Assembly: GCF_006546735.2 (NCBI RefSeq)
Contig: NZ_VICD02000069.1
Location: forward strand, 1 to 32,567
DNA: 32,567 nt
DNA from: Marilutibacter maris
GTDB taxonomy: Bacteria; Pseudomonadota; Gammaproteobacteria; Xanthomonadales; Xanthomonadaceae
Direction of reading: 5' to 3'
Made by a program: the position numbers and the translations under genes. The notes under the pieces were generated by a model. It had not been told where the DNA came from, searched no databases, and saw nothing but the letters and a program-made list of their open reading frames with translations. Below are positions 138 to 24,061 of the stretch, piece after piece (within the stretch, counting starts at the first letter, position 1; every line of letters starts with the position of its first letter).

Positions 138-1643
<1,506 letters not shown>

Positions 1644-1721
1644 GTTCGGGCTCGTGGGGTGCCGCCGCGCGGGCGGACCGACTGGTCTGGAGGTGGTCAT
1701 GGAATCTGTCGTGCGATCGAC

Positions 1722-1739
1722 AATACCACTGCGATACCA
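1722..1739 (-). promoter_or_regulatory. Candidate NagQ-type operator, zwf side
   Basis: Read on the minus strand the site is TGGTATC-N4-TGGTATT, two 7-mers in direct orientation. A similar unit stands in mirror orientation at 1814-1831 before the regulator gene. TGGTATT-type half-sites are reported for the GntR regulator NagQ in Xanthomonas. The binding protein here is inferred to be the adjacent regulator. The half-site at 1722-1728 could also serve as a -10 element for zwf. Confidence 0.6.
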
Positions 1740-1813
1740 ATCCAGCAAATCCGGCCTGGGAACGCCCTTCACAAGCCAGAACAGGGGCTTTGTTGCCCCA
1801 ACTGGTTTGTTAC

Positions 1814-1831
1814 TGGTATCTTTCAGGTATG
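1814..1831 (+). promoter_or_regulatory. Candidate NagQ-type operator overlapping the regulator start codon
   Basis: TGGTATC-TTTC-AGGTATG, where the final ATG is the likely start codon (1829-1831). The first half-site could double as a -10 hexamer, with a weak TTGTTG -35 at 1790-1795. Transcription would then begin at or next to the A of the ATG, giving a leaderless message that its own product could shut off. A short hairpin, GGGGC-N6-GCCCC at 1784-1799, sits just upstream. Autoregulation and the leaderless mRNA are inference. Confidence 0.55.
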
Positions 1832-2587
1832 CAGGACTATCTGCTCAACGAATACCAGCGTCAGGTCGCCGCGCGTCGCGCGCCGGCCTACCAGCACCTG
1901 CGCCGGACCCTCCAGCACGCGATCGAGAACGGCTCGCTGACCGCCGGCCAGGCCCTGCCCGGCGAGCGCGAACTGGCGCGCCTGCTGGCGCTGTCGCGGG
2001 TGACCGTGCGCAAGGCGATCGCCGGCCTGGTCGCCGACGGCCTGGTGACCCAGCGCCAGGGCGCCGGCACCTTCGTCGCCGAGCGCATCGTCAAGTCGTT
2101 CTCGGCGCTGACCAGCTTCACCGACGACCTGCGCGCGCGCGGGCTGGACCCGCGTTCGGAGTTCCTGGAGCGCGGCACCGGCGAGGTCACCCCCGAGGAG
2201 GCGATGGCGTTGAACCTCTCCCCCGGGGCCCAGGTGATCCGCTACTACCGGCTGCGCACCGCGGGCGGCTCCGGCGAAAACCGTACCGCGCTGGCGCTGG
2301 AGCGCACGGTGGTGCCGGCCGAGGTGCTGTCCGACCCGGCCCTGGTCGAGAATTCGCTGTACGCCGCCTTCGACAAGCTCGGCCTGCGCCCGGTGCGCGC
2401 GCTGCAACGGTTGCGCGCGATCGCCTTCGACGCCGAGCAGGCGCGGCTGATGCGCCTGCCCGAGGGCAGCCCGGGACTGTTCATCGAACGCCGCACCTTC
2501 CTCGACGACGGCCGCGTCGCCGAGTTCACCCGGTCCTTCTACCGCGGCGATGCCTACGACTTCGTCGCCGAACTGCATACGGAGTGA
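1829..2587 (+). CDS. nagQ: GntR-family regulator with UTRA domain, NagQ-like
   Basis: A 252-residue transcription factor. The N-terminal GntR winged helix (about residues 15-80) contains LPGERELARLLALSRVTVRKAIAGL followed by the typical wing TQRQGAGTFV. The rest (about 95-245) is a UTRA ligand-binding domain of the type that senses phosphorylated sugars. Genes for GlcNAc-6-P deacetylase and deaminase follow directly, so glucosamine-6-P or GlcNAc-6-P is the likely effector, as in NagQ/NagR/YvoA proteins. I chose the ATG at 1829 because homologues start just before YQHLRRTLQ. The frame upstream to 1790 lies in the promoter. There is no clear ribosome binding site, consistent with a leaderless message. 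The stop is 4 bases before the next start codon, so the genes are an operon. Confidence 0.88.
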   Translation: MQDYLLNEYQRQVAARRAPAYQHLRRTLQHAIENGSLTAGQALPGERELARLLALSRVTVRKAIAGLVADGLVTQRQGAGTFVAERIVKSFSALTSFTDDLRARGLDPRSEFLERGTGEVTPEEAMALNLSPGAQVIRYYRLRTAGGSGENRTALALERTVVPAEVLSDPALVENSLYAAFDKLGLRPVRALQRLRAIAFDAEQARLMRLPEGSPGLFIERRTFLDDGRVAEFTRSFYRGDAYDFVAELHTE

Positions 2588-2591
2588 TGCC

Positions 2592-3668
2592 TTGAACGCC
2601 GCCGCCGATCCGACCGCCCTGTCCGCCCGGCCGCTGCGCGCCGAGGACACCCTGATGTTCGCCGAGGCCGCCGAGACCGCCGACGCGGTCGCGCGCCAGT
2701 TCGCCGCCAACGCCGACACCCTCGATGCCCTGGCCGAACGCCTGCGCGCCGATCCGCCGCGCTTCATCGTCACCTGCGCGCGCGGCAGTTCCGACCACGC
2801 CGCGACCTACGGCAAGTACCTGTTCGAGACCACCCTGGGCCTGGTCACCGCCTCGGCCTCGCCGTCGATCGGCTCGGTCTACGCGATCCGGCCGAAGATG
2901 GAGGGCGCGCTGTTCGTGGCGATCTCGCAGTCGGGCAAGAGCCCGGACCTGCTGCGCAACGCCGAGATCGCCAAGGCCGCCGGCGCCCACGTGGTCGCCC
3001 TGGTCAATGTCGCCGACTCGCCGCTGGCGGCGCTGGCCGACACCGTGGTGCCGCTGCACGCCGGCCCCGAGCGCAGCGTCGCCGCGACCAAGAGCTATCT
3101 GTGCTCACTGGCCGCACTGCTGCAGCTGACCGCGCGCTGGAGCGGCGACACGGCCCTGCGCGAAGCCGAACGCGGCCTGCCCGCGGCGCTGCGCCAGGCC
3201 TGGGCGCAGGACTGGTCGGCGGTGGTCGACGTCCTCCGGGACGCGCGCAACCTGTTCGTGCTCGGTCGCGGGCTGGGCCTGGGCGCGGCCCAGGAAGCCG
3301 CGCTCAAGTTCAAGGAAACCAGCGGCCTGCACGCGGAGGCGTTCTCCTCGGCCGAGGTCAAGCACGGTCCGATGGCGATCGTCGGCCCCGGCTTCCCGGT
3401 GCTGGCCTTCGCCCAGGACGACGACACCGGCGCCGGCACCGCCGCGGTCGCCGAAGAGTTCCGCGGTCGTGGCGCGCCGGTGTGGCTGGCCGCGCCCGGC
3501 CAGGCCGCCGGCGACGGGCACCTGCCGCTGGCCGCCTCGCCGCATCCGGCGGTGACCCCGCTGCTGACCGTGCAGTCGTTCTACCGCGCGGTGAACGCAC
3601 TGGCGGTCGCGCGCGGCCACAATCCCGACCTGCCGCCGCATCTGAACAAGGTCACCGAGACGGTCTGA
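2592..3668 (+). CDS. nagB-II: SIS-domain glucosamine-6-phosphate deaminase (NagB-II type)
   Basis: Two tandem SIS (sugar isomerase) folds of the AgaS/GlmS C-terminal type fill the 358 residues. The first carries CARGSSDHAATYGKY and ISQSGKSPD, which bind the sugar phosphate. The second carries LGRG and SAEVKHGPM, the conserved E-x-x-HGP region. NagB-II proteins convert glucosamine 6-phosphate to fructose 6-phosphate and ammonia and replace classical NagB in xanthomonads and Shewanella. The start is probably the TTG at 2592, because GGAG (2581-2584) lies 7 bases upstream and overlaps the end of the regulator gene. The in-frame ATG at 2655 would be a shorter alternative. There is no glutaminase domain, so it is not GlmS. 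nagA follows after 57 bases. Confidence 0.88.
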   Translation: MNAAADPTALSARPLRAEDTLMFAEAAETADAVARQFAANADTLDALAERLRADPPRFIVTCARGSSDHAATYGKYLFETTLGLVTASASPSIGSVYAIRPKMEGALFVAISQSGKSPDLLRNAEIAKAAGAHVVALVNVADSPLAALADTVVPLHAGPERSVAATKSYLCSLAALLQLTARWSGDTALREAERGLPAALRQAWAQDWSAVVDVLRDARNLFVLGRGLGLGAAQEAALKFKETSGLHAEAFSSAEVKHGPMAIVGPGFPVLAFAQDDDTGAGTAAVAEEFRGRGAPVWLAAPGQAAGDGHLPLAASPHPAVTPLLTVQSFYRAVNALAVARGHNPDLPPHLNKVTETV

Positions 3669-3725
3669 AGCCCAACGCCCCTACGGGTCGCTTCTGCGTA
3701 CGACACTCACCACGACGACACCGCC

Positions 3726-4859
3726 ATGTCCACCCTCGCCTTCCACAACGGTCCGATCCTTACCGAACGCGGATTCGCCGACGGCCTGTGCGTGATCGTC
3801 GAAGACGGCCGGATCGCCGCGATCCTGCCGGGCGGCGCCCCTCGTGGCAGCGAGGCGGTCGACCTGCGGGGCCGGCACCTGGTGCCGGGCTTCATCGACA
3901 CCCAGGTCAACGGCGGCGGCGACGTGCTGTTGAACGACACACCGACCGTCGACGGCGTGCGCCGGATCGCCGAAGCGCACCGGCGTTTCGGCACCACCGG
4001 CATGTTGCCGACCCTGATCAGCGACGACGTGGCGGTGATGGTCGAGGCGATCGCCGCGGTGCGCGGGGCGATCCAGGCCGGCGTCCCGGGGATACTCGGC
4101 ATCCACCTGGAAGGCCCGTACCTGGCCGAGGCGCGCAAGGGCGTGCACGACCCGGAAAAGTTCCATACTCCCGACCCGGCCGAACTCGACCGGATCGCCT
4201 CGCTCGACAACGGCCGTACCGTGCTGACCGTGGCCCCGGAACGCTTCGACGCGGCCACCCTGCGCGCACTGAGCGCGCGCGGGGTGATCCTCAGCGCCGG
4301 CCACACCGCCGCCGACTACGCGACGATGCGCGCCGGCCTGGACGCCGGCATCCGCGGCGTGACCCACCTGTTCAACGCGATGACGCCGATGAACAGCCGC
4401 GAGCCCGGCGGCGTCGGCGCCGCGCTCGACGACCCCAACGCCTGGTGCGGGCTGATCGTCGACGGCCACCACGTCCACGACGCCAGCCTGCGGATCGCGA
4501 TCGCCGCCCGTCCGCGCGGCAAGATGATCCTGGTCACCGACGCGATGCCCCCGGTCGGCGGCGAACGCGACACCTTCGAGCTCTACGGCGAGACCATGAC
4601 CTGCCGCGAGGGCCTGTGCGGCACCGCCGACGGCACCCTCGCCGGCTCCGCGCTGGACATGGCCAGCGCCGTACGCAACACGGTCAGACGCCTCGGCCTG
4701 CCACTGGACGAAGCCTGCCGGATGGCCTCGCAATACCCGGCCGATTTCCTCGGCCTGGATGCCGACCACGGCCGCATCGCGGTCGGCTGTCGCGCCGACC
4801 TGGCGATGCTGGACGACGACATCACCGTGCAGGGCACCTGGATCGGCGGCCAGGCCTGA
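3726..4859 (+). CDS. nagA: N-acetylglucosamine-6-phosphate deacetylase
   Basis: The 377-residue amidohydrolase-fold enzyme removes acetate from GlcNAc-6-P to give glucosamine 6-phosphate for the upstream deaminase. The first metal motif reads PGFIDTQVNGGG (about residues 54-65), with Gln in place of HxH, as in E. coli NagA, so a single-metal centre is expected. Next come HLEGPYL (H127, E129), AGHT (H193), THLFNAM (H214), DGHH (H248-H249) and the catalytic Asp in VTDAMP (D272), all intact. It is cytosolic and forms the third gene of the nagQ-nagB-nagA operon. No nagK kinase or GlcNAc transporter is in the window. Confidence 0.95.
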   Translation: MSTLAFHNGPILTERGFADGLCVIVEDGRIAAILPGGAPRGSEAVDLRGRHLVPGFIDTQVNGGGDVLLNDTPTVDGVRRIAEAHRRFGTTGMLPTLISDDVAVMVEAIAAVRGAIQAGVPGILGIHLEGPYLAEARKGVHDPEKFHTPDPAELDRIASLDNGRTVLTVAPERFDAATLRALSARGVILSAGHTAADYATMRAGLDAGIRGVTHLFNAMTPMNSREPGGVGAALDDPNAWCGLIVDGHHVHDASLRIAIAARPRGKMILVTDAMPPVGGERDTFELYGETMTCREGLCGTADGTLAGSALDMASAVRNTVRRLGLPLDEACRMASQYPADFLGLDADHGRIAVGCRADLAMLDDDITVQGTWIGGQA

Positions 4860-4880
4860 ACGCCACCGGACGCACATCTT

Positions 4881-4930
4881 CGTAGGCGGCGTAAGCCGCG
4901 ATCCCCGGGCTGCGCCCGGGAATCCCCAAA
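4881..4930. repeat. REP-like palindromic repeat, copy 1 (single arm)
   Basis: A copy of the TAGGAGCGGC / GCCGCGAT repeat, here with a 3-base loss (TAGGCGGC), followed by CCCCGGG-N-GCGCCCGGG and AATCCCCAAA. The same compound arrangement recurs at 27951-28002, so the downstream CCCGGG hairpin is part of a subtype of the repeat. Confidence 0.8.
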
Positions 4931-5016
4931 GTTTGCTGCGCAAACCTATGGGCCCCGCCGTTGCGCTGCCACACCCTTATTCGCGCTATGCGCGAATCGC
5001 CCCCTGACTCAGGGGG
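4931..5016. other. Cluster of three short hairpins downstream of nagA
   Basis: Three perfect inverted repeats follow each other: GTTTGC-TGC-GCAAAC (4931-4945), ATTCGCGC-TAT-GCGCGAAT (4979-4997), and CCCCCTGA-C-TCAGGGGG (5000-5016). None has a T-run, so intrinsic termination is not assured. They may stabilise the nagA 3' end or be relics of repeats. No gene is seen between 4860 and 5099. Confidence 0.6.
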
Positions 5017-5045
5017 GTGGGTGCATGGCGAAGGCAAACGCTCTT

Positions 5046-5115
5046 CGTAGGAGCGGCGTCAGCCGCGATGGAGCTTTCTCGGGATGGGCCGGTCGCGGCT
5101 TACGCCACTCCTACG
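5046..5115. repeat. REP-like repeat pair, copy 2 (two inverted arms)
   Basis: Left arm CGTAGGAGCGGCGTCAGCCG, right arm TCGCGGCTTACGCCACTCCT, with a spacer containing GGAGCTTTCTCG. The same two-arm form recurs at 32137-32205 and 32305-32372, and the GGAGCTTTCTCG spacer is shared with the latter. The right arm supplies the stop codon and last residues of the ankyrin reading frame. Confidence 0.85.
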
Positions 5116-5571
5116 GCCTGGGCCACGCCGCGCTTCCGTAGCCAATCGGCCACCTCGGTCCTGTCGTGCTCCAGAGCGACCTGCTCCGGCGTCCTGCCCT
5201 TGTGATCCCGCATTCCCGGGTCGGCCCCGTATCTGATCAACGCCCTTACTGCGCCAAGCCCACCCCAGCCGCTGGCCCAGTGCAAATGGGGTCATTCCGG
5301 TATCGCTGGCGGCCACATTCGGATTGGCGCCCGCGCGCAACAATACACGCAGTGCCGTTGCATTACCGTGCGATGCGGCGCCATGCAACGGCGACTCGCC
5401 GGTGTCGTCAAGAACCTCGATGTCGTGACCCCGGCGTATCAACCGCCGCAGCCGCTTGTGCGCACCGACCCAGGCTTCGCCGTGCATCGGGGTCTCGGCT
5501 TCGCCCCGCCTGGCCGATGCGTTTTCGTAGCCGCTTGGAGAACGCCGTCTACTCATGATGTCTGGTCTCAC
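5100..5571 (-). pseudogene. Ankyrin-repeat protein, frameshifted
   Basis: Two overlapping minus-strand frames together encode one small ankyrin protein of about 155 residues. The first frame (from a GTG at 5571 preceded by GGAG, or the ATG at 5556) gives DTGESPLHGAASHGNATALRV and ends in GMTPFALGQ. The second continues the ankyrin consensus as LHWASGWGGLGAVRALIRYG and KGRTPEQVALEHDRTEVADW, and stops at 5100. One extra base in the A-run at 5284-5286 (TTT on the coding strand) accounts for the break: ATG ACC CCA TTG CAC would read MTPLH. It is either a real frameshift mutation or a sequencing error. The last residues and stop lie inside the REP-like repeat. Such small ankyrin proteins occur among immunity proteins, but the function here is unknown. 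Confidence 0.75.
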
Positions 5572-5613
5572 CGTGACTCCAGGCCGATATCTGTTCCGGT
5601 GTCCTCACACCGC

Positions 5614-5639
5614 CGGTCGCGGCTCACGCCGCTCCTACC
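5614..5639. repeat. REP-like repeat, copy 3 (single arm)
   Basis: A single right-hand arm, TCGCGGCTCACGCCGCTCCT, lies between the ankyrin pseudogene and the downstream secreted protein gene. No inverted partner is seen. Confidence 0.8.
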
Positions 5640-5653
5640 TATCGCGGGCGTGC

Positions 5654-6124
5654 TCAATCCGCGCTTGCCTCGGGCCGGCAGCCGGTGCCTTTCACGACCA
5701 CCCCGTTCACCACGTCCTCGCAACCCCGGTACGGCAGCGCGACCGACAGCGTGAAACGCCCATCGACCGGTTTGCCGCCACAGGTCGCCTGCACATAGGT
5801 CGAACTGCCTGCAATCCGCAGTGCGTCCCTGTCCAGGCTCCTGGAGCCGCTGGAACGCGCGACCCTGACCGCCTGGAACCCGGGCGCCGAATCCGGCGTC
5901 ACCACGACCTCGAGCAGGGTCACCGCCTTGGGCGCCGCAGGCCACTGGCGTTCGGCCGCTTCGATCGCCGAGGTGTCCAGCTCAAGCAGTTCGGGGCCGA
6001 CGTAATCCTTGCATCCGCTCTCCGACAGCGCCTGCGCGTCGCTGTCGAAGGCGGCGAGCGACACGCCGCACAACACGGCGAAGGCCATGCCCGACGCCCG
6101 GATGGGTCGCTTCGTTGCGGACAT
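5654..6124 (-). CDS. Secreted protein with TonB C-terminal-like fold
   Basis: A 156-residue protein with an N-terminal signal peptide (basic MSATKRPIRASG, then a hydrophobic stretch, with cleavage likely after DAQA near residue 32). The mature part contains APKAVTLLEVVVTPD, VARSSGSRSLDRDALRIAG and KPVDGRFTLSVALPY. This is the pattern of TonB/energy-transducer C-terminal domains (the xVVxSSG, LDxxAL and DGRFTLPV region). There is no proline-rich linker, so it is not a standard TonB; it may be a stand-alone periplasmic TonB-C protein. Four Cys remain in the mature chain. The start is the ATG at 6124, which overlaps the stop of the DUF1877 gene as TGATG, suggesting translational coupling. The exact role is unknown. 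Confidence 0.7.
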   Translation of the reverse strand: MSATKRPIRASGMAFAVLCGVSLAAFDSDAQALSESGCKDYVGPELLELDTSAIEAAERQWPAAPKAVTLLEVVVTPDSAPGFQAVRVARSSGSRSLDRDALRIAGSSTYVQATCGGKPVDGRFTLSVALPYRGCEDVVNGVVVKGTGCRPEASAD

Positions 6125-15990: not shown

Positions 15991-16038
15991 TATCCTGACT
16001 GCCTGTCTGTGAAAGCCGGGGCAGTCCAACCTGACCCC
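15991..16038. mobile_element. Solo right end of IS3-family element, copy A
   Basis: Matches the last part of the IS3-family element at 17370-18617 (TATCCTGACT...CTGTCTGTGAAAGCCGGGG...CAGTCCA) with one difference, followed by the same AACCTGACCCC flank. An AACCTGACCCC motif also precedes it (15973-15983), so the fragment sits between short direct repeats. The region 15846-16163 holds this fragment and otherwise no gene. Confidence 0.8.
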
Positions 16039-16163
16039 ATTTTTCAGTTCAAGGTGAGTCCCTTTTGCGTGGACGGCGCCAGTGTTGTGGGACCTGCAGG
16101 GCTGTGGTAGAAGTCTAAGTTGGACAAGGCGTGGACTGGTCTTTTACCAAGGGAGCTTGGTTG

Positions 16164-16967
16164 ATGAAAAAGTGGTTATATGGCGTTTCGCTTGTTATTG
16201 GATTTGCGGTTCCTTTGTCTGTCGCAGCGGAAAGCGCACCTGGCGATTTGTTTCCGGAAGAGGGGTTGAACCCTGAAGATATCCAGTCACTCTACATCGG
16301 GCAAAGCTACCATTCACAGCAGGTCGTTTTGGGGGCGAGGGCGGATGGTTTTACCGCTACGGCCATATATGATCGTGCTACCGATCGAATATATGTGGAT
16401 ACTGCATATGCGTCATTTGATGTTGGGCTAGGACAAGCTGCCCTTCAAGCGGCAAAAGGTAATTCGGCGCTTGCAAATTCAATGGCGAGTGATTTGCGGT
16501 CAAGTTTTCTAACGCAGCATTCGTTTGAGATTACGGTTGGGTCTATTGGGCTTCCATCGTACACGCCTCCTTCTGGAATCCCAGAGCCATGCGATCTTTC
16601 TCCATGCGATCCGTGGGCATACATGATTCGAGAAGGGTTTATGGAATCTTACTTAGGATTTCGGGTATGGGATCCACGTGTTGACCCGTGGTGGGAAATG
16701 GCTCATACCGACGAGGAGGTAGAAGAAGATAAGGCTGCGTTCAATCGAGCTAAGGATCACTGGTGTGATCAGGAGGCCTCGGATTCGATGCAGATTCTTG
16801 CCGGGCTGTTGAGCGGGACCCCCGCCTGTATTACCGGTGAAACAAATCCTTTTTCAGCTTCTGTCTGTGCTGGTTCTGTTGTTACCATATTGGATGGTTT
16901 TCGTAGCGATGCAAGCGAGAAGTGTCATCAAAAGTATCCCGGGCCGGGTGCATGGCATTTCCCATGA
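16164..16967 (+). CDS. Exported protein of unknown function, AT-rich, 267 aa
   Basis: The ATG at 16164 follows AGGGAG. The signal peptide is typical (MKKWLYGVSLVIGFAVPLSV, cleavage after VAAE or nearby). The mature part has SFDVGLGQAALQAAKGNSAL, SFEITVGSIGLPSYTPPSGI, a PEPCDLSPCDPWAYMI segment and a C-terminal stretch with four more Cys (DHWCDQ, TPACITG, SVCAGS, EKCHQ). Codon use is clearly more A/T-rich than in the rest of the window, pointing to horizontal transfer. It lies between two IS3 remnants. The next gene overlaps by 4 bases (ATGA). No family is recognised; an exported effector or adhesion protein is possible but unproven. Confidence 0.75.
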   Translation: MKKWLYGVSLVIGFAVPLSVAAESAPGDLFPEEGLNPEDIQSLYIGQSYHSQQVVLGARADGFTATAIYDRATDRIYVDTAYASFDVGLGQAALQAAKGNSALANSMASDLRSSFLTQHSFEITVGSIGLPSYTPPSGIPEPCDLSPCDPWAYMIREGFMESYLGFRVWDPRVDPWWEMAHTDEEVEEDKAAFNRAKDHWCDQEASDSMQILAGLLSGTPACITGETNPFSASVCAGSVVTILDGFRSDASEKCHQKYPGPGAWHFP

Positions 16968-17131
16968 GAAAAGAAATGATAGAAATGCTTTTGATTGTTT
17001 TTGTTGGGTTTGCGGTGGCTTCGAATCTGTATGCTACTGCGCATATCTCCGACAAAGTGGCAAGGGTGCGATATCAAGCAATATTCTCTATTGGTCTGCT
17101 GTTTCTGCTTGCGTACTACTTGCTCCGGTGA
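16964..17131 (+). CDS. Small two-span membrane protein, 55 aa
   Basis: The ATG at 16964 overlaps the upstream stop as ATGA, the classic sign of translational coupling. The peptide has two hydrophobic segments (EMLLIVFVGFAVASNLYATA and FSIGLLFLLAYYLL) joined by a short basic loop (HISDKVARVRYQ). Low GC matches the gene before it. A strong hairpin terminator follows at 17163. No family is recognised; the small size and coupling would fit an immunity or chaperone role for the exported partner, which is inference. Confidence 0.65.
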   Translation: MRKEMIEMLLIVFVGFAVASNLYATAHISDKVARVRYQAIFSIGLLFLLAYYLLR

Positions 17132-17162
17132 GTTTCATCACAAGCCTGTATGAGTGCTGTAG

Positions 17163-17190
17163 GAGAGGCCCCGCGGAAGCGGGGCCTCTC
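17163..17190 (+). terminator. Strong hairpin after the AT-rich gene pair
   Basis: GAGAGGCCCCGC-GGAA-GCGGGGCCTCTC, a perfect 12-bp stem with a GGAA tetraloop, followed by GTTG and only a weak T tract. It lies 31 bases after the stop of the small membrane gene. It could terminate in either direction. Confidence 0.75.
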
Positions 17191-17230
17191 GTTGCCGAGG
17201 TCAAGAGGGCGGCCATCGATACACTTCCGG

Positions 17231-17310
17231 AAAAAGGGTCGGATTCATTTGTCCCCATGAATGAGCGCCCGCTGTTTAGAGCCGGGGTCAGTAGAGCCGG
17301 GGTCAGAGTC
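17231..17310. other. Scar-like motifs before the IS3 element
   Basis: AAAAAGGGTCGGATTCATTT (17231-17250) is the inverse of the AAATGAACCTGACCCCTTTT motif at 15969 and 21448. Two GAGCCGGGGTCAG units follow at about 17279 and 17291. Between them, ATGAATGAGCGCCCGCTGTT (from 17259) nearly repeats the first codons of the gene at 19431-19721. The stretch 17132-17423 holds no intact gene apart from the terminator and the IS left end. Confidence 0.5.
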
Positions 17311-17426
17311 GAGTTTCGCGCATGCAGGCAGTCCACCCCGGCCGGATTCCCAGGAGTGGCTTCGCCCTGTGGACTGGCCCACCCTTCACAGACACCTGAA
17401 AATGGGGACAACCCCGGAGGTGTTTG

Positions 17427-17678
17427 ATGGTAAGGCAGAAGTTCACCGCAGAGTTCAAGCGCGAGGCGGTGCGGTTGCTGGAGCGCGGCGACAAGCCGGC
17501 TACCCAACTGGCGCTGGCGTTGGGCGTACCGCGTAACCTGCTCTACAAATGGCGCGATGCGATTGCCACTGATGGGGATCAGGCGTTCCGTGGCTCTGGC
17601 CGGCGTTCGCCACAGCAGCAGGAGCTAGCCCAACTGCGCCGACAGGTCGCTCGGCTAGAGCAGAAAGCACGATCTTAA
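17427..17678 (+). pseudogene. IS3 transposase orfA, truncated by a small deletion
   Basis: An HTH_Tnp_1 domain: MVRQKFTAEFKREAVRLLER, then LALALGVPRNLLYKWRDAI and a leucine-zipper-like QQQELAQLRRQVARLEQK. GGAGG lies 6 bases before the ATG. The usual orfA continuation ...DILKKATAHFA is present in the DNA, but a one-base loss near 17667-17671 throws the frame into TAA at 17676-17678, just before the A7 slippery run. The normal -1 frameshift to orfB can therefore no longer occur in frame. Confidence 0.85.
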
Positions 17679-17683
17679 AAAAA

Positions 17684-18587
17684 GCGACGGCGCACTTCGC
17701 GAGCGCATCCAAGCGCGGTACGCCTGGATCGACGGACAACGGATGACGTTTCCTCTGACAGACCTGTGCCGGGCGTTGAAGGTGTCGCTCAGCGGCTATC
17801 ACGCCTGGAAACGGCGTCCACCAAGCACCAGGGCAACGGAAGACGTGAAGCTGGCGGCAGTTATCGCAGCCACGCACCGGGAACTTCGAGAGAGCTATGG
17901 AAACCGTCGTCTGTGGCGCGAGTTGCGTCGGCGTGGCATCGACTGCGGACGTCATCGAATGGATCGCCTTCGTCGAGAGTTCGGCCTGTGGACGCGCCGC
18001 CGACGCCGCTTCTTGCGTGCTCGCGCCGCCTATCAGCGCACGCCAGCGGCACCACGGCTATGCTCGTGGCCGTTTGCCGCACCGACGCCGGACCGGCTGT
18101 GGGTCGGCGACATCACGCGGTTGCCCACGCGCGAAGGGCCGCTCCACTTCGCGGCCCTGATCGACGCCTGCAGCCGACGCGTTGTTGGCTGGGCGATGGA
18201 CAATCACCAGCGGCTCGATCTCACCGAGCGCGCCCTCGATATGGCCTTGCAGCAGCGTCGCCCCAAGCCGGGTCTGATCCTTCACCATGACCGCGGTAGC
18301 CAGTACACCGGCGCCGTTACCGGGCCAAAGCGGAGGCAGCGAAAATCCGTCTGAGTATGAGCAGGCCGGGGTTGCCCTACGACAACGCCATGGCCGAGAG
18401 TTTCTTCGCCACCCTCAAGCACGAGACTGGTGACGACAGACCCTTTGAAAGCCGCGAAGACGCACGCATGGCAGTGTTCGAGTATGTCGAGCTCTTCTAC
18501 AACCGCATCCGCATGCACTCGGCACTGGACTACCAATCACCGGTGCAGGCGGAGAGGAACTATCTATCGGTCAGGCTTGTATCCTGA
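17684..18587 (+). pseudogene. IS3 transposase orfB (rve integrase core), frameshifted
   Basis: The first part (readable from ATG 17743 to 18354) has the HTH_21 region ELRESYGNRRLWRELRRRGI and the integrase core with WVGDITRLPTREGPLHFAAL (first Asp) and LILHHDRGSQYTG (second Asp). A one-base deletion near 18314-18318 ends this frame early. The rest resumes in another frame as SMSRPGLPYDNAMAESFFAT (the catalytic Glu in AMAE) and ends ERNYLSVRLVS at 18587. The full protein would be about 290 residues, normal for IS3 orfB. Confidence 0.88.
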
Positions 18588-18629
18588 CTACCTGTCTGTG
18601 AAAGCCGGGGCAGTCCAACCTGACCCCTT
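18552..18629. repeat. 78-bp right-end repeat, copy B (IS3 right end)
   Basis: This segment covers the last codons of orfB, the right inverted repeat and the AACCTGACCCCTT flank. It is identical over all 78 bases to 21468-21545, and its last part matches 15991-16038. Confidence 0.95.
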
Positions 18630-18734
18630 CTATCCAACCCAGTCCTTCATGTCTTCACGAGTTGCCATCTCTCCTCCCAGTAGCGGTCAGAAGTCGCGGC
18701 TACATGACGCAACAACATCAATCTTGTCCAACGA

Positions 18735-19037
18735 TCACGCGCGTCCAGTCCATAACCGTGCCAGCTTGACGAAACCGGCCTGCAACAGCATTGGAAGCAT
18801 GCCAAAGACAAGAACGCAGAAGATCACCGAGCCAACCAGGACCCCTGCCAGGTTCATCGCATAGAGGAGCCAGTCCAGGAACCCCTCCGGACCCGCAACA
18901 CGCTCCGAGCGAGTCGCGATGGAGCCCAGTGCGGGCACAAGGCCCAGCACGGCACCCACGGCCGCGGTGCATATGATCGTCTGCCTGAATTGCGCTCTAT
19001 CCATCACGCTCCTGTCTGACTCACCCTGCATCTTCAT
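18735..19037 (-). CDS. Small two-span membrane protein, 100 aa
   Basis: The ATG at 19037 overlaps the stop of the upstream gene as ATGA. An internal ATG at 19004 with AGGAG 4 bases before it gives 89 residues and may be the real start. Spans: TIICTAAVGAVLGLVPALGS and LLYAMNLAGVLVGSVIFCVL continuing into VFGMLPMLL. A basic tail (KLARLWTGRA) ends the protein. No family is recognised. It is probably cotranscribed with the DUF6984-like gene. Between the IS end at 18617 and 18734 no gene is seen. Confidence 0.6.
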   Translation of the reverse strand: MKMQGESDRSVMDRAQFRQTIICTAAVGAVLGLVPALGSIATRSERVAGPEGFLDWLLYAMNLAGVLVGSVIFCVLVFGMLPMLLQAGFVKLARLWTGRA

Positions 19038-19372
19038 GACTCAGGCATGCCGCAGGGTGGGCCGGCGCGCAGATCCACGCGGGTGGGCCACGTCAGCAGC
19101 GGGCTGAAGTCCGCCTTGAACACATCGATTTCAAACGGAACGCCGGCCACGTCGAGATTGAGCGCAACCGAAACCAACACGCCATCCGAATCGTGGAAAT
19201 GACACTCGGCAGCGGATGAACCATAGCGCTCCCCTGGTGGCTGTATGGCCAGGCCGCCCATGCCACCGTCGTCCATTGGCTCCACGCGCAGTGCGTCCAA
19301 GTCTACCGATAGCCCCGCCAGCTCGAACAGGTAGCTGGCTAGGGGACGTTCGCAATCCAGCAATCCTCTCAC
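19034..19372 (-). CDS. DUF6984-like protein, 112 aa
   Basis: A GTG at 19372 is the first possible start after an in-frame stop. The sequence RGLLDCERPLASYLFELAGL, VEPMDDGGMGGLAIQPPGER, CHFHDSDGVLVSVALNLDVA, GVPFEIDVFKADFSPLLTWP matches the pattern I associate with DUF6984 (DGGMG and DxDGVxVSVxLNxD with ELDVxKxDFSPL). Function is unknown; such proteins are frequent in immunity-like clusters. It is soluble and linked by ATGA to the membrane gene downstream. Confidence 0.65.
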   Translation of the reverse strand: MRGLLDCERPLASYLFELAGLSVDLDALRVEPMDDGGMGGLAIQPPGERYGSSAAECHFHDSDGVLVSVALNLDVAGVPFEIDVFKADFSPLLTWPTRVDLRAGPPCGMPES

Positions 19373-19430
19373 GAGCGTTTGTCACCATGCGTTGGTCCTG
19401 GCCACGGAACGGCCCAGGTAATGAAGTTGG

Positions 19431-19721
19431 TCAATCTCCGACACGCTTCCACTGGTCTGCCGACGTTCCGAACTGCTGAGCGGCCTGCGCGAACGCCTCC
19501 TCCAGTGTGGGATGCCAGGTATCGCCATCGAGATGCGGATGGCCACTGGATTGGCTCACGAGCAGGAAGCCTTCGGGCAGGGCATGGATCACTAGGCGCA
19601 GCCGCGCGGTATGACGATGTGGCGGCCGAGGTGCGGCGCCTACGGGGTGCCCGTCCTGCTGATCCGGGCCATCAAGGGCGAGTGCGTGCTCCGCAATCTC
19701 GAACAGTGGACGCTCATTCAT
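19431..19721 (-). CDS. Small soluble protein, 96 aa, unknown
   Basis: From the ATG at 19721: MNERPLFEIAEHALALDGPD, a His/Pro-rich linker, RLRLVIHALPEGFLLVSQSS and a C-terminal DTWHPTLEEAFAQAAQQFGT. The last block resembles the end of several small uncharacterised proteins in which a TWHxTLEEAxxQA helix ends the chain. No family name can be given. A near copy of the first seven codons occurs at 17259 on the other strand. It follows 17 bases after the gene at 19739-20176. Confidence 0.6.
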   Translation of the reverse strand: MNERPLFEIAEHALALDGPDQQDGHPVGAAPRPPHRHTARLRLVIHALPEGFLLVSQSSGHPHLDGDTWHPTLEEAFAQAAQQFGTSADQWKRVGD

Positions 19722-19738
19722 GGAGACACCCTGCCCCA

Positions 19739-20176
19739 TTACTTTCTGCGATCGAGAAAGCTGAAGCTGAGCGTCGCACCGATTCGCTGCAGGTCCGCGA
19801 TGCTGGATGGCGAGATGAACCCGCCCTCCTGCTCGGGCGAATCCCTTACCGGAAGGACCAGATCGATATCGATGTGCTCGGGTTCGATCCGTCGCAGGCA
19901 TTCAGAGAGGCGATCGATCCCGCCCATGTGGTCAAGGATCGCTTGCACCATCCGGAACAGCGGGGTATCCGGCGCCAGATCGACATTGAAGCGGACGTAC
20001 GAGCGCTTGAGCAGCGCCTTGCCAGGCAAGGCCGGCGTGCTCGCCAGACCCGAACTGTCGGCGGCTACGCCAAAGAGAGCGATCACCTCATCGGTGGAGC
20101 CCGGGAATCCCCTGATCGTCAAGCTGACAGACCGGGGCCGTAACGTTTCTGGTTCCTGTGGCGAGCTTCTTTCCAT
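19739..20176 (-). CDS. DUF4279-like protein, about 145 aa
   Basis: The core reads RPRSVSLTIRGFPGSTDEVI, SYVRFNVDLAPDTPLFRMVQ, ILDHMGGIDRLSECLRRIEP, then a beta strand EHIDIDLVLPV and GGFISPSSIADLQRIGATLS. This order (N-terminal strand, central helices, then a glycine followed by an S-P-x-x-I helix and a final strand) resembles DUF4279 immunity-like proteins. The match is from memory and moderate. The start may be ATG 20176 or 20239, or TTG 20245; none has a strong ribosome binding site. It is soluble, of unknown function, and in line with the next gene. Confidence 0.6.
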   Translation of the reverse strand: MERSSPQEPETLRPRSVSLTIRGFPGSTDEVIALFGVAADSSGLASTPALPGKALLKRSYVRFNVDLAPDTPLFRMVQAILDHMGGIDRLSECLRRIEPEHIDIDLVLPVRDSPEQEGGFISPSSIADLQRIGATLSFSFLDRRK

Positions 20177-20270
20177 GGAGTCTGGTTCCCGAGTGGATCC
20201 GCACCGCAGAGCGGCGTCCGTGGAGTCGACCGCCTTCATGTGCAAAGGTCGATTCTGGCCGCGGCTCTGC

Positions 20271-20813
20271 TCATAGTCGCATCCCCAGCCAGATCACGGC
20301 TTCCGTAGACGCGGAGACCACGGGGGAAAGCACTCTGGGCCAGAATCTTCCGGCCTGGAGGTGCGTCGCGGACCGGTCGTGATGGCGTTGCTCATCCGAA
20401 ATGATGGCCGAGATGGCGGTTGCGGCGGCGGGATCGGCTCCACGCAAGGCCGCAAGCTGCTGCTCCAGATGCCGGAGTACGACGCTTTCCACTGCGACGG
20501 TCGTGGCGGCAATGGCATTGCGACCCAAGAGGCCGGTGAGCATTCCCAGCAGGAAGCCCCCAAGACCGCATAGCCAGTAGCTGCGGCAACGCCGCTGGCC
20601 ACGACGCTGCAACTCGGTGCCGAAGATTGCACGATGCCGTTGTTCATGTCGCCGAAACTCCGCGAGCTCATGAATCAGGTCTGGAGCCGTAAACCGGGCC
20701 AGCGCGATCTGACCGGAGTAGATGCTGATTGCGCCGTGTTCGCCCGCGTGGTTGACCTTGAGTATTCGGCTTCCCAGATCCGTGACCGAAGGGGCTCGGG
20801 TACATTCACCCAT
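20271..20813 (-). CDS. COQ7-family di-iron protein (demethoxyubiquinone hydroxylase-like)
   Basis: A 180-residue protein with the complete six-ligand di-iron set of the COQ7/ferritin-like fold: E25 in NHAGEHGAI, E57 and H60 in HEQRHR, E109 in VAVESVVLRHLE, E141 and H144 in DEQRHHD. A hydrophobic stretch (YWLCGLGGFLLGMLTGLLG, about residues 79-97) would dip into the membrane, as in COQ7. COQ7 hydroxylates demethoxyubiquinone in ubiquinone synthesis. Members with the CRSYWLCGLGGF segment form a distinct xanthomonad branch whose substrate is not certain. The ATG at 20813 gives a normal length. Confidence 0.8.
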   Translation of the reverse strand: MGECTRAPSVTDLGSRILKVNHAGEHGAISIYSGQIALARFTAPDLIHELAEFRRHEQRHRAIFGTELQRRGQRRCRSYWLCGLGGFLLGMLTGLLGRNAIAATTVAVESVVLRHLEQQLAALRGADPAAATAISAIISDEQRHHDRSATHLQAGRFWPRVLSPVVSASTEAVIWLGMRL

Positions 20814-20909
20814 GAAATTGATGCCTCGATTTCAGCAGAACTGGCACCCACCAGTGTGTCGCTCTATCAAAAGACAGAGCGCTGTCATCATCCCGTTGAT
20901 CTGACGTTG

Positions 20910-21347
20910 TCAGCGCGCGCGTCCCTGCCGGAACAGGGCGCTGAGCTCCTCACCGCTGTAGAAGCGGACATGGGAGATCGGGTAGTCGCCCGGGAAGGTG
21001 ATGATGGGCCCATAGATGTAGCCGTTCACATCGCCGACCCGATACATGCTCTGCATGACGGTGAGGTCGTAGTACTCGCACTCATAGTGCGTCGTACCGC
21101 CATCCGACTCGCCGCTGTCCGGGGTGTCCTTGCAGGCGGGGGGATGACCGCGAAGCACCAGGTCGATGTCCTTCTCCGCCGCCAGCACCGCGGATCGCGC
21201 GGGCTCGGGGAGTTTGGAAGGATCGACACCCACGAAGAACGTGTCTGTCGACTCGGACACGCGGTCGACACTGACCGGCTGGGGCGCCTGACCCGAACAG
21301 CCCGCGGCGACAAGGATGGATACGGCGGCAGCTGCGATGGTCCTCAT
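20910..21347 (-). CDS. Putative lipoprotein, 145 aa
   Basis: The ATG at 21347 has AAAGG 9 bases upstream; an ATG at 21353 lies too close to that site. The N-terminus RTIAAAAVSILVAAGCSGQ is a lipoprotein signal with Cys17 as the likely acylated residue (VAAGC is slightly off the lipobox consensus). The mature part holds STDTFFVGVDPSKLPEPARS, an acidic Cys-containing loop with THYECEYYDLTVMQSMYRVG, and GPIITFPGDYPISHVRFYSG. No named family is recognised. Expected in the periplasm or outer membrane. Confidence 0.7.
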   Translation of the reverse strand: MRTIAAAAVSILVAAGCSGQAPQPVSVDRVSESTDTFFVGVDPSKLPEPARSAVLAAEKDIDLVLRGHPPACKDTPDSGESDGGTTHYECEYYDLTVMQSMYRVGDVNGYIYGPIITFPGDYPISHVRFYSGEELSALFRQGRAR

Positions 21348-21467
21348 GGGCATCAACCTTTGGATGTGGCCTGCGGGATCAGGAACGTGGCGAACCAGCT
21401 CCGATTTCCGTACCAGTCCCCACGCCTTAACGTGAGACTCCAGAAAAATGAACCTGACCCTTTTCCC

Positions 21468-21545
21468 GAGAGGAACTATCTATCGGTCAGGCTTGTATCC
21501 TGACTACCTGTCTGTGAAAGCCGGGGCAGTCCAACCTGACCCCTT
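21468..21545. mobile_element. Solo right end of IS3-family element, copy C
   Basis: 78 bases identical to 18552-18629, including the last codons of orfB (ERNYLSVRLVS) and the right inverted repeat. It is preceded by AATGAACCTGACCCTTTT at 21448-21465 and lies 20 bases past the 3' end of the caspase gene, at the left edge of the defence operon. Confidence 0.92.
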
Positions 21546-21565
21546 TTATCTATCGTTCTTGCTGC

Positions 21566-22540
21566 TCATATGCGTCGCTTTTCAACGAGTCGGCGATAAT
21601 GTTCACCAAGGACGGTGAGCTTGCATGCTTTTCCCTGCATCGCAGCGTGCCACATATGTGGCGCATCAACTGGAACAACGAGATTCAGCCTGCTGTAGCG
21701 CTGAAGTATCGCAAACTTCCTTGTGTTCTCGGCGACTGGCGCCGGCATATCTGGATCACGCCCTTTTAATTCAGGTTCGAATGTAGGATCTAATCGAAAC
21801 TCTGCCCCAGGCGCGGGAAAAAATTCCGTAATGCGGCGCAGATCCTCAAGGTCAATCAACGGAGGAATTTTCCGAAGAGAGACAAACTCTCTGACGTTAG
21901 TCTTGAATACCGGCCGTTGCTCCCATGCTCCAAGCGATTGATCTATATGCGCGTAGACGCTACCCGGGGTTATGTCGCCGGTGAGGTTTGCAGCGCCACC
22001 ATGCAGTGCATCCACCAGAAGAGTGGTGAAAACTCCCTTTCCGTGTTCTTCTGTTGCATATTGATCATCTGTCGACGCTGTCAGCACAGTAAGCCCTTCG
22101 GCTAGCGCTGCGACGTTACCGGTTTCGGGAAGAGTTCCGGCAATACCAGAGTGACAGCTATCGAGCACAACAACCTTGTTGCGCGCAGGCGAAGCGTTCG
22201 CGAGCCTCAAGACTTCGGAAAGAGAAAGACCCTCGTCGCCGCGCCGAGAGTCTGTAGCTAGCAGATAACCACCCGCCGCTTCAATATGACCGTGTCCGGC
22301 GAAATAGAACAATGCGATCTCGGCCTGCGACTTAAACAGCTCGACAACATGGTCTTTAAGGTCGGTGCGATCGACCCGGTCAGTTGAGCCAGTGCCGGTG
22401 AGGAGCTTGCAGTCGAAATTGACTGCACCGTCACCATGTCGTTCCAAAACAGTCTTGACTGCATGCGCGTCGTCGACGCAACCAAACAGTGCGCCTCCAT
22501 GCTCATAGTAGTTTATGCCAACAATGAGTGCGATACGCAT
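21566..22540 (-). CDS. Caspase-like protease (peptidase C14), predicted Thoeris effector
   Basis: The N-terminal about 210 residues form a caspase p20-like domain. It starts [20 protein letters not shown], has the catalytic His in YFAGHGH (H83) and the catalytic Cys in VVLDSCHSG (C129), and [20 protein letters not shown] follows as in other prokaryotic caspases. The last about 110 residues ([13 protein letters not shown] ... [20 protein letters not shown] ... [19 protein letters not shown]) form a separate domain without a name I can give; it may hold the signal sensor. GGAG lies 7 bases before the ATG. It sits 13 bases after a TIR gene, the arrangement of type IV Thoeris. There, a TIR-made ADP-ribose-type signal activates the protease, which then degrades cell proteins and stops phage growth. 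Codon use is AT-richer than the flanks. Confidence 0.9.
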
Positions 22541-22553
22541 AACTTCACTCCGG

Positions 22554-22925
22554 CTAGAGACCGTTGATAAAGTTCTCGATGGCGGCCCAGGTCCACACCA
22601 CAGTACGAACGCCTTCTAGATTGGTTCTGTCGTCCTTGTATATCCAAAGACCGAGAACAGGCTTCTTCTCCTCGCGAGCGCAAGCAATCTCCCACTTCTG
22701 ACCACTAGATGAGAGTGAATTCTTGCTCACTAGGACGATCACCCCATCGGAACGCCGAATGCGGGTTCGCACCCGCTCCTTCCACTCAGAGCTATAGGCC
22801 TCCTTCACGGACATGTCGACGTAGTCAAAGGGTGACTTCGTGCTAAGGGATTGTCCCTTAAGGAAGTCTCGTTGCCGCTCGTCTTCAATCGCAAACGCTA
22901 CGAAAATAACCTTCTTACCTGCCAT
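22554..22925 (-). CDS. TIR-domain protein (ThsB-like), predicted Thoeris signal synthase
   Basis: The 123-residue protein is a single ThsB-type TIR-like domain (PF08937-type). It opens [20 protein letters not shown] and shows the hallmark [20 protein letters not shown], then [18 protein letters not shown] and the conserved Glu in KWEIACA (E79, the expected catalytic position), and ends [13 protein letters not shown]. In Thoeris systems such proteins sense phage infection and convert NAD+ into a cyclic ADP-ribose-type signal. AAAAAGGAG lies 5 bases before the ATG, so translation should be strong. The caspase gene follows 13 bases later, with its ribosome binding site just after this stop codon. 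Confidence 0.9.
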
Positions 22926-22976
22926 GTGAACTCCTTTTTCTTAAGTGTTTCTTCAATATGTCCGCTAGACCTGCTA

Positions 22977-22993
22977 CGCTCAATACTTGAGCG
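22977..22993 (-). other. Hairpin between the GYQP gene and the TIR gene
   Basis: CGCTCAA-TAC-TTGAGCG, a perfect 7-bp stem in the 80-base gap (22926-23005). There is no T-run on the coding strand, so it is not an ordinary terminator. It could be an RNA-processing or attenuation element that sets the ratio of the two gene pairs, or it could be of no consequence. Confidence 0.4.
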
Positions 22994-23005
22994 AGCTGTT
23001 TTTAA

Positions 23006-23170
23006 TCACTCCTCACCTGGAGGGTTAGCTGGATTGTCTCCCTCACTTGTGGGCTGATAGCCGCCTTGTGGGATTGGATCATCTCCTGGTTTTGGCGTGC
23101 TCGGCTGATAGCCTCTTTCAACTGGACTGGGTCGATAACCTTCATTGATTTCTTTGCGCTTTTCAGACAT
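23006..23170 (-). CDS. 54-residue proline-rich protein with GY(R/Q)P repeats
   Basis: The ATG at 23170 has AGGAG 7 bases upstream, overlapping the end of the DUF6338 gene 10 bases away. The peptide starts MSEKRKEINE and then has three repeats: GYRPSP (11-16), GYQPSTPKPGDD (20-31) and GYQPTSEGDN (37-46), before an acidic NPPGEE tail. There are no Cys, no signal peptide and no hydrophobic core, so it should be disordered. The codons are AT-rich like its neighbours. Short proteins with the same GYQP style occur next to TIR, caspase and DUF6338 genes in my recollection, but I know of no function. Possible roles are a tether between the membrane protein and the soluble proteins, or a protease substrate or inhibitor. 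Confidence 0.75.
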   Translation of the reverse strand: MSEKRKEINEGYRPSPVERGYQPSTPKPGDDPIPQGGYQPTSEGDNPANPPGEE

Positions 23171-23180
23171 TTACCGTCTC

Positions 23181-23765
23181 CTATTCCCGAAACTCAATAT
23201 GAGATATCTCACCCGAAAGCACCAAGACTCCAGAAGTCCTAGATACCTTTCTAACGAACTGCCCACGTTCCCCTAGCACCCAAGTTTCTTCCAGATAGAT
23301 CTGCTCATCTGCCGGAGCGCTTGAGGTAAAGGACTTGCCCGCATAACGACCGGCCACAATAGTGCCGTTCCGCAATGTGACCTTTACCCAGGACGACTTC
23401 CGTTGTTGAAATACAAAATCCCATGGCTTTGCTGTGGGATGAGGCGCGTTGCGCTGGAAGAAGTCTCTTGTTCTAACGTACTTCCAGATCAGCACCCATA
23501 AAACTGGAGCCAAAAAGAGTACAAATATATAGAACAGGTAGTAAAGGAATGCACGAGCCTGAAGCAATTCACTTCGCTGCACCAATGAAATTGGTACGGC
23601 GAGAATTGCGTAGTTAATACTGCTATACGCAATAGCGTCTACAAGCTGTTCAGATGACGGCCGTTCGGTCCCAGGAAAAGCTAGCTGATAGCACTTGATA
23701 CTAATAAACCCTGGAATTACGAATGCCAGGAACAGAACAAGCTTGTCCGCTCCCCAGATATCCAT
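23181..23765 (-). CDS. DUF6338 family membrane protein, first gene of the TIR-caspase operon
   Basis: A 194-residue protein. Three likely membrane spans: VLFLAFVIPGFISIKCYQLA (about 10-29), INYAILAVPISLV (about 50-62) and AFLYYLFYIFVLFLAPVLWV (about 72-91). The C-terminal about 75 residues (WDFVFQQRKSSWVKVTLRNG, IVAGRYAG, QIYLEETWVL, FVRKVSRTSGVLVLSGEISH) form a beta-rich, Sm/PRC-like cytosolic domain. This is the DUF6338 layout. GGAGGG precedes the ATG at 23765. It is the promoter-proximal gene of the operon. The family is known from defence and mobile regions, but its activity is unknown. A membrane-located sensor or effector of phage infection is a reasonable guess. Confidence 0.8.
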   Translation of the reverse strand: MDIWGADKLVLFLAFVIPGFISIKCYQLAFPGTERPSSEQLVDAIAYSSINYAILAVPISLVQRSELLQARAFLYYLFYIFVLFLAPVLWVLIWKYVRTRDFFQRNAPHPTAKPWDFVFQQRKSSWVKVTLRNGTIVAGRYAGKSFTSSAPADEQIYLEETWVLGERGQFVRKVSRTSGVLVLSGEISHIEFRE

Positions 23766-23799
23766 ACGCCCTCCATGACGCCCGCCTCTTTTTGCGAAC

Positions 23800-23822
23800 A
23801 CATCACATGTGTAGTGTGATGT
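23800..23822. promoter_or_regulatory. Inverted repeat upstream of the TIR-caspase operon
   Basis: ACATCACA-N7-TGTGATGT, perfect 8-bp arms, with a CACATGTG palindrome inside at 23804-23811. It lies 34 bases before the first ATG of the operon, a good position for an operator. No regulator gene is adjacent, so a chromosomal factor would have to bind. The TGTGA arm recalls CRP/Clp-type half-sites (TGTGA-N6-TCACA), but the arms are in the reverse order. Confidence 0.5.
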
Positions 23823-23940
23823 TGGTTGGAGACTACTACAAAGCCGGCCCCATAGACGCCATCACCGGCGCAGACCCCTCCCCCCCCAACCGCTAACCCC
23901 GCTCCCGGCCGTCACCCCTCACGGTCGACCAAGGCCGCAT

Positions 23941-23949
23941 TGCTATAAT
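23941..23949 (+). promoter_or_regulatory. Promoter of the indolepyruvate oxidoreductase gene
   Basis: TGCTATAAT, an extended -10 with a perfect TATAAT at 23944-23949 in otherwise GC-rich DNA. The -35 region (ACGGTC at 23921-23926) is weak, as allowed for extended -10 promoters. Transcription would begin near 23956 and leave a leader of about 105 bases before the ATG at 24062. Confidence 0.7.
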
Positions 23950-24061
23950 TTCGAGTCTTTGCTCGGACCCTGACCCGTGCCCGCCGGCGTTGCCGCGGAC
24001 CTGGGGCATGGCGCCGGGCGTTCTCCCGCAGCCACAGGCGATCCCCCGCCCGGAGCCACGT

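Follow-up and report, generated by a model that had tools for sequence, protein, structure and literature searches.

A conserved proline-rich GYxP peptide gene is the probable partner of a DUF6338 gene rather than part of the neighbouring TIR–caspase pair

Background

The window analysed here is a stretch of 32,567 nucleotides (nt) from Marilutibacter maris (contig NZ_VICD02000069.1, positions 1 to 32,567) in which a 54-amino-acid (aa) open reading frame (ORF) lies between a gene of the DUF6338 family and two genes encoding a TIR protein and a caspase-family protease. The locus raises two questions: is such a short ORF a gene at all, and to which of its neighbours does it belong? An earlier inspection of the letters, hereafter the sequence-only reading, took it for a real small gene and placed it in a caspase operon as a possible protease substrate, inhibitor or scaffold. 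We found that the ORF is a genuine, conserved gene, and that its peptide is the partner of the DUF6338 gene and not part of the TIR–caspase pair. The features of the peptide gene, with their basis in brackets, are as follows.

23006–23170, minus strand: GYxP peptide gene, 54 aa, proline-rich (ORF listing, homologue searches, locus counts, selection test)
23129–23140, minus strand: motif 1, GYRP, residues 11–14 (peptide translation)
23102–23113, minus strand: motif 2, GYQP, residues 20–23 (peptide translation)
23051–23062, minus strand: motif 3, GYQP, residues 37–40 (peptide translation)
23009–23023, minus strand: C-terminal tail PPGEE, the charge of whose last residue co-varies with DUF6338 (co-variation analysis)
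23178–23182, minus strand: Shine-Dalgarno sequence AGGAG, overlapping the DUF6338 stop codon (sequence)

Results

The peptide gene and its linkage to DUF6338

The ORF running from 23170 to 23006 on the minus strand encodes MSEKRKEINEGYRPSPVERGYQPSTPKPGDDPIPQGGYQPTSEGDNPANPPGEE (54 aa), in which we judged by eye that there is no hydrophobic stretch. The ribosome binding site and operon spacing noted in the sequence-only reading are both there, with AGGAG 7 nt before the ATG and the DUF6338 stop 10 nt upstream of the gene, as are the three spaced GY(R/Q)P motifs, which begin at residues 11, 20 and 37. Translational coupling is possible given the overlap of the Shine-Dalgarno sequence with the DUF6338 stop codon.

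DUF6338 loci were gathered, 40 from viral contigs and 49 from species genomes, with others from plasmids, E. coli and further genomes. Uncut DUF6338 genes at most 85% identical to each other gave a non-redundant set of 88, with one truncated locus left out, and 583 other genes from the same loci served as controls. By mechanical count a proline-rich ORF of the GYxP type is found directly 3' of 72 of the 88 DUF6338 genes, compared to 27 of the 583 controls. Collecting small ORFs beside DUF6338 for the GYQP motif, as had been proposed, gave the stricter G(Y/W/F/H)QP form at 62 of the 88 loci and after 1 of the 583 control genes.

The 16 loci that fail the mechanical rule (cited here by our locus handles) consist of seven with a variant or nested ORF recognised by eye (L090, L109, L111, L112, L116, L127 and L140), six with a proline-rich ORF that has no GYxP (L004–L006, L024, L130 and L133) and three with nothing convincing within reach (L026, L067 and L126). 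Of the 40 viral-contig loci, some of them duplicates, all but L067 (39 of 40) have between one and four ORFs of the GYxP type directly 3' of DUF6338. Such ORFs also follow DUF6338 at 48 of the 49 species-genome loci, if SYxP and GWxP variants and ORFs lying inside the end of DUF6338 are included; the exception is L087, where the contig ends.

A distant DUF6338 group on Pseudomonas-family chromosomes (L155–L177, the MDDLVKEVIPLLQYLIPGF type) has its own small ORFs with PPPPK tails, sometimes three in tandem. In 18 of the 21 distant loci recognised by the DUF6338 profile, out of 23 fetched, the small ORF has a PP(P/L)K-type tail and no GYxP. Because these distant partners keep the PP-K tail and not the repeats, the tail seems from the sequences to be the more widely shared trait, to which the GYxP repeats are an addition.

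Conservation and selection

Family searches with the window peptide against Pfam, NCBIfam, PADLOC and PHROGs gave no match above chance, and the relatives searched likewise had no Pfam or PHROGs family above chance (best expectation value, E, across the peptide look-ups 0.31). A sequence search of the PDB with the peptide gave no match. A literature search on GYQP returned mostly coronavirus spike, with no work on this peptide among the matches listed. The sequence-only reading called the gene unannotated, which is true of one E. coli record that leaves the peptide out and not of several relatives listed as 'hypothetical protein' in RefSeq or GenBank.

Translated searches (tblastn) found relatives on plasmids. 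The match in Proteus penneri (58%, E 8e-4) and weak matches on five Acinetobacter plasmids (E 0.3–0.5) all adjoin a DUF6338 gene, four by reading the region and two by coordinates. The same search gave no match in phage records; one Klebsiella phage record carries DUF6338.

Across 74 relatives (L111 being entered by hand in this count only) the commonest motif is GYQP, with 111 occurrences and one to four motifs per peptide. A PP-type tail is present in 60 of the 74, and the window peptide combines GYxP repeats with a PP-containing tail. Many relatives end in PPPKKP, and the tail is basic across much of the family.

The proportion of synonymous change (pS) exceeds that of non-synonymous change (pN) in comparisons of the window peptide with nine close relatives, a substitution pattern indicating that the gene is under purifying selection. 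Lack of a conserved small ORF in relatives and lack of protein-level constraint had been named beforehand as the signs of a spurious gene; what we found was the ORF at 72 of 88 loci and a pN of 0.24–0.33 below a pS of 0.61–0.81.

The end of the peptide co-varies with DUF6338 residue 140

We compared peptide ends with DUF6338 in 71 non-redundant pairs, leaving out L017 and L114 as frayed or misread peptides. Where DUF6338 has Lys or Arg at residue 140 the last residue of the peptide is acidic in 13 of 15 pairs, and where it has neither the last residue is non-acidic in 55 of 56. The window pair follows this charge rule, having PPGEE and K140. The charge reverses twice among neighbours: L072 (PPGDK, E140) stands beside L015 and L073 (PPGEE and PPGDE, K140), and L099 (PPGKK, E140) beside L095 (PPGAE, K140).

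With independent contrasts, for which columns 140 and 205 were left out of the tree, the correlation between last-residue charge and the charge of residue 140 was r = -0.84, and r stays between -0.72 and -0.83 after removal of the telling rows. For comparison the next strongest of the 900 defined position pairs (1000 in all, 100 undefined) reaches 0.50 in absolute value, with a standard deviation of 0.13. None of 5000 shuffles of the contrasts reached the observed r over 100 columns, the best column attaining at most 0.62, with the caveat that shuffling contrasts falls short of a complete evolutionary null model. A signal linking the third- and second-last residues of the peptide to residues 205 and 179 of DUF6338 was rejected as lying within background.

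We regard this as good evidence, short of proof, that the last residue of the peptide contacts DUF6338 residue 140. The suggestion of the sequence-only reading that the peptide binds a neighbour appears likely, DUF6338 being the neighbour to which the charges point.

Predicted structure of DUF6338

23181–23801, minus strand: DUF6338 gene (PF19865, E 4e-39), with N-terminal hydrophobic helices and a predicted C-terminal Sm-like domain (Pfam match, models)
23181–23441, minus strand: Sm/LSm/Hfq-like C-terminal domain of DUF6338, about residues 121–206 (AlphaFold models of two relatives, fold comparison)
23382–23384, minus strand: DUF6338 Lys140 codon, proposed contact of the last residue of the peptide (co-variation)

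The true start of DUF6338 is likely the ATG at 23765, whose MDIW is kept in relatives. AlphaFold models were made for two relatives, each as a single chain in which the DUF6338 stop codon was read as glycine, so that the in-frame peptide continued from it. The modelled DUF6338 consists of several long helices and a C-terminal barrel, and the protein is predicted to be anchored in the membrane. The 50 rows listed for each model in the fold comparison are Hfq, Sm-like, spliceosome or snRNP chains, one archaeal protein in the first comparison being the lone other row; the best Z scores were 7.8 and 8.8, and a Z below 8 may reflect no more than a common arrangement. An Sm-like fold for the C-terminal domain is likely, short of proof. 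A search of the PDB with the DUF6338 sequence gave one match, at E 0.065, which we did not credit. An MscS-like channel, considered for its resemblance, was dropped as absent among the fold-comparison rows listed.

The peptide had been described as a disordered-looking, proline-rich chain with repeated motifs, and in both models it is indeed disordered, with a predicted local distance difference test (pLDDT) score mostly below 60. The score rises at the C-terminal tail (74 compared to 50–58 before it in one model and 63 compared to 47 in the other), a suggestive hint that the tail may dock.

Mass-spectrometry-detected peptides of Pseudomonas stutzeri

The sole paper that we found naming DUF6338 is PMC10433244. 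According to that article, P. stutzeri ATCC 14405 has three proline-rich small ORF-encoded proteins (SEPs) of less than 50 aa in an operon with DUF6338, which were detected by mass spectrometry with 44–114 spectra each while DUF6338 itself went undetected; its authors saw the SEPs only in P. stutzeri, considered them not conserved and suggested de novo genes. In our set L171 has three small ORFs after DUF6338 (36–42, 47 and 41 aa by start codon) with PPPPK tails and no GYxP. Since L171 agrees with the layout given in the article in ORF number, size, frame pattern and rough map position (estimated from the locus tag), we infer that it is very probably the P. stutzeri SEP locus. It is likewise very probable that the detected peptides are relatives of the window peptide.

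Genomic company and carriers

The DUF6338–peptide pair occurs on chromosomes and plasmids, in prophages and in a Tn7-like element; among these places are prophage-like E. coli regions that we read as P2-type and a small plasmid on which no annotated immune gene stands beside it. Elsewhere the pair adjoins an E2–E1–JAB protein with a metallohydrolase, a SMODS CD-NTase (another lies 2 kb away in L097), a TIR protein (L081), SIR2 with a HerA-like protein (L098) or Gabija genes (L108 and L095).

Some of these loci are organised in longer blocks. In Photobacterium (L095, 3482–9331) the genes for TIR, caspase, DUF6338, GYxP peptide, GajA and GajB are consecutive. An Acinetobacter operon found at 1522–6105 in both L019 and L103, and in pieces in L016, L017 and L027, encodes a metallohydrolase, a Prok-E2_A/ThiF/JAB protein, DUF6338 and three tandem GYxP peptides. 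An integrated element of E. coli (L149, 6001–12431) holds the DUF6338–peptide pair together with TIR, SIR2 and DNA polymerase genes.

In the window the DUF6338–caspase block looks acquired, because its G+C content is 51–57%, against values mostly near 70% in the flanks (beyond 15 kb and 24 kb). Positions 16001–24000 (50–62% G+C against mostly 65–73% in the flanks) hold a transposase-like ORF, several small ORFs and the immune block, and likely form an acquired island. Within it an 83-nt direct repeat occurs at 18552–18634 and 21468–21550 (99% identical, 2916 nt apart); one copy lies at the end of an ORF resembling an IS3-type transposase, the second adjoins the caspase gene, and the repeat is perhaps an insertion-sequence end or remnant.

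Discussion

A proposed two-gene module

We hypothesize, with a probability of about 0.72, that the locus contains a two-gene module in which a membrane-anchored DUF6338 with an Sm-like domain is paired with a disordered peptide whose tail docks by residue 140, the whole being a mobile cassette that is probably anti-phage. DUF6338 would sit in the membrane, and its partners would be one to four small, disordered, soluble peptides whose genes directly follow its own. Docking would be through the peptide's end (PPGEE in the window, PPPKKP in many relatives), which would bind the Sm-like domain close to residue 140, leaving the GYxP repeats exposed as outward-facing short linear motifs, and the abundant peptide would set the state of a scarcer protein. 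In function the pair would probably act as an effector or platform at the membrane, with the peptide setting its state. As a self-contained cassette it may be carried as an add-on by this TIR–caspase pair and by some other immune operons, and it is this company, together with the carriers, that suggests phage defence.

Several observations weigh against this explanation. Three pairs break the charge rule: L092 has PPKKT with K140, and L117 and L122 have an acidic end without Lys or Arg at 140. Well-supported branches yield three independent pairs (about 2 agree, 0 oppose), too few for a sign test. Another 48 rows also agree, but most are copies or close kin of set members, the window's own copy among them; just 7 fall below 85% identity to the set, and all 7 end in a non-acidic residue. 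The correlation of the third-last residue with residue 205 (-0.47) falls within the background of defined pairs. Foldseek with the DUF6338 model gave no PDB match at E <= 0.001, and most of the modelled peptide has a pLDDT under 60, forms no strand and, judged from pLDDT, is not confidently positioned. A natural DUF6338–peptide fusion was dropped as a candidate, with 0 of 174 domain hits showing one. Finally, the immune neighbours are individual cases, set against no background rate of defence genes.

It is conceivable that the pair is more than this, namely an undescribed mobile immune module in which a membrane Sm-like receptor has its state set by an abundant, disordered ligand encoded in trans, removal of that ligand by phage proteins triggers the membrane effector, and several unrelated immune operons have adopted the module as a second line. 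We consider this extended version improbable.

Alternative explanations

That the ORF arose by chance, or is a decayed gene without function, might be supposed from its short length and low complexity; conservation and selection contradict it, as does the detection of probable relatives by mass spectrometry, and we give it practically no weight. A second alternative is a role with the TIR–caspase pair as substrate, inhibitor or scaffold. The four genes stand on the minus strand in the order DUF6338, peptide, ThsB-type TIR and caspase.

22554–22925, minus strand: ThsB-like TIR protein (PF08937), separate TIR–caspase module (family match)
21566–22540, minus strand: caspase-family protease (PF00656), separate TIR–caspase module (family match)

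Terminator and promoter counts between the peptide and TIR genes are below shuffled means, with one terminator-like hairpin on the plus strand, and a terminator or promoter separating the two genes was accordingly dropped. The four-gene order is identical in Proteus penneri, and Photobacterium (L095) and Curtobacterium (L024) likewise have TIR and caspase genes next to the DUF6338 pair. These are, however, the only 3 of 156 other DUF6338 loci at which a profile search found both, the other 153 having none such within the stretch examined (many stretches extend just 1.5 kb from the match), and the arrangement differs, TIR and caspase being upstream in L095 and on the other strand in L024, where the downstream ORF is proline-rich and has no GYxP. 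Pfam on selected neighbour ORFs (139/159, among the 25 families listed) gave three caspases and two ThsB_TIR; in this selection the caspase profile places caspases at L095, L072 and L107, with TIR too in L095 only.

Conversely, no G(Y/W/F/H)QP peptide was seen nearby at any of 15 related caspase loci without DUF6338 (ten viral-contig loci and five plasmids that we chose among 40 listed of 52), a TIR gene being seen at 13 of the 15 and some stretches being short on one side; one chance ORF lies 3 kb away in L180. Of the 40 listed (of 52) caspase plasmids, 2 are also among the 20 plasmids with DUF6338. Membership of the peptide in a caspase system, as the sequence-only reading had it, is thus quite unlikely, and of its proposed scaffold between the DUF6338 beta domain and the TIR or caspase protein the DUF6338 half survives, this domain being the best-supported partner, while the TIR or caspase half finds no support.

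Two readings accept DUF6338 as the partner and differ in what the pair does. The pair may resemble a toxin–antitoxin system, DUF6338 putatively harming the membrane and the peptide neutralising it, as would suit a cassette of two genes that plasmids, prophages and a Tn7-like element carry, with up to four peptide genes per DUF6338 and, in P. stutzeri (PMC10433244), peptides detected where DUF6338 was not. The peptide gene, however, lies downstream of the supposed toxin, and neither protein matches a toxin or antitoxin family in Pfam, NCBIfam, PADLOC or PHROGs, which leaves this a minority possibility to be taken seriously. Alternatively DUF6338 may hold the peptide at the membrane as a multivalent platform whose GYxP repeats recruit a host or phage protein. 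The one to four motifs per peptide favour such a platform, and since the distant partners of DUF6338 have the PP-K tail without the repeats, the two elements look functionally separate; on the other side, no GYxP ligand is known and some DUF6338 partners have no GYxP at all (L004–L006, L024 and most of L155–L177). We hold it to be about as tentative as the toxin–antitoxin reading.

Taken together, a stray small ORF turns out to be one member of a widespread gene pair found across phyla, with prophages, plasmids and a transposon among its carriers, and a domain of unknown function gains a predicted Sm-like fold and a specific candidate contact, between the last residue of the peptide and residue 140. 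The P. stutzeri peptides described as non-conserved and de novo are suggested to be of a conserved kind, which short length and low complexity hide from searches.

Comparison with known systems

The P. stutzeri SEPs (PMC10433244) resemble the window peptide in being small proline-rich ORFs directly 3' of DUF6338; the L171 ORFs differ in their PPPPK tails and in having no GYxP. Type IV Thoeris is a TIR protein plus a caspase-like protease (PMC12847820, citing Rousset 2025), and the two genes downstream of the peptide, a ThsB-type TIR next to a caspase-family protease, are alike, whereas the peptide and DUF6338 were not seen at the 15 related caspase loci and so do not qualify as components of that system.

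The Sm/LSm/Hfq fold is the closest likeness for the predicted C-terminal barrel of DUF6338, which differs in being joined to hydrophobic helices and is known here from models, with no PDB sequence match. In Hfq the acidic C-terminal tip binds the protein's own basic rim. The docking that we propose would be similar, a disordered tail meeting an Sm core through charges, with the difference that here the tail is encoded by a gene of its own and, across much of the family, is basic.
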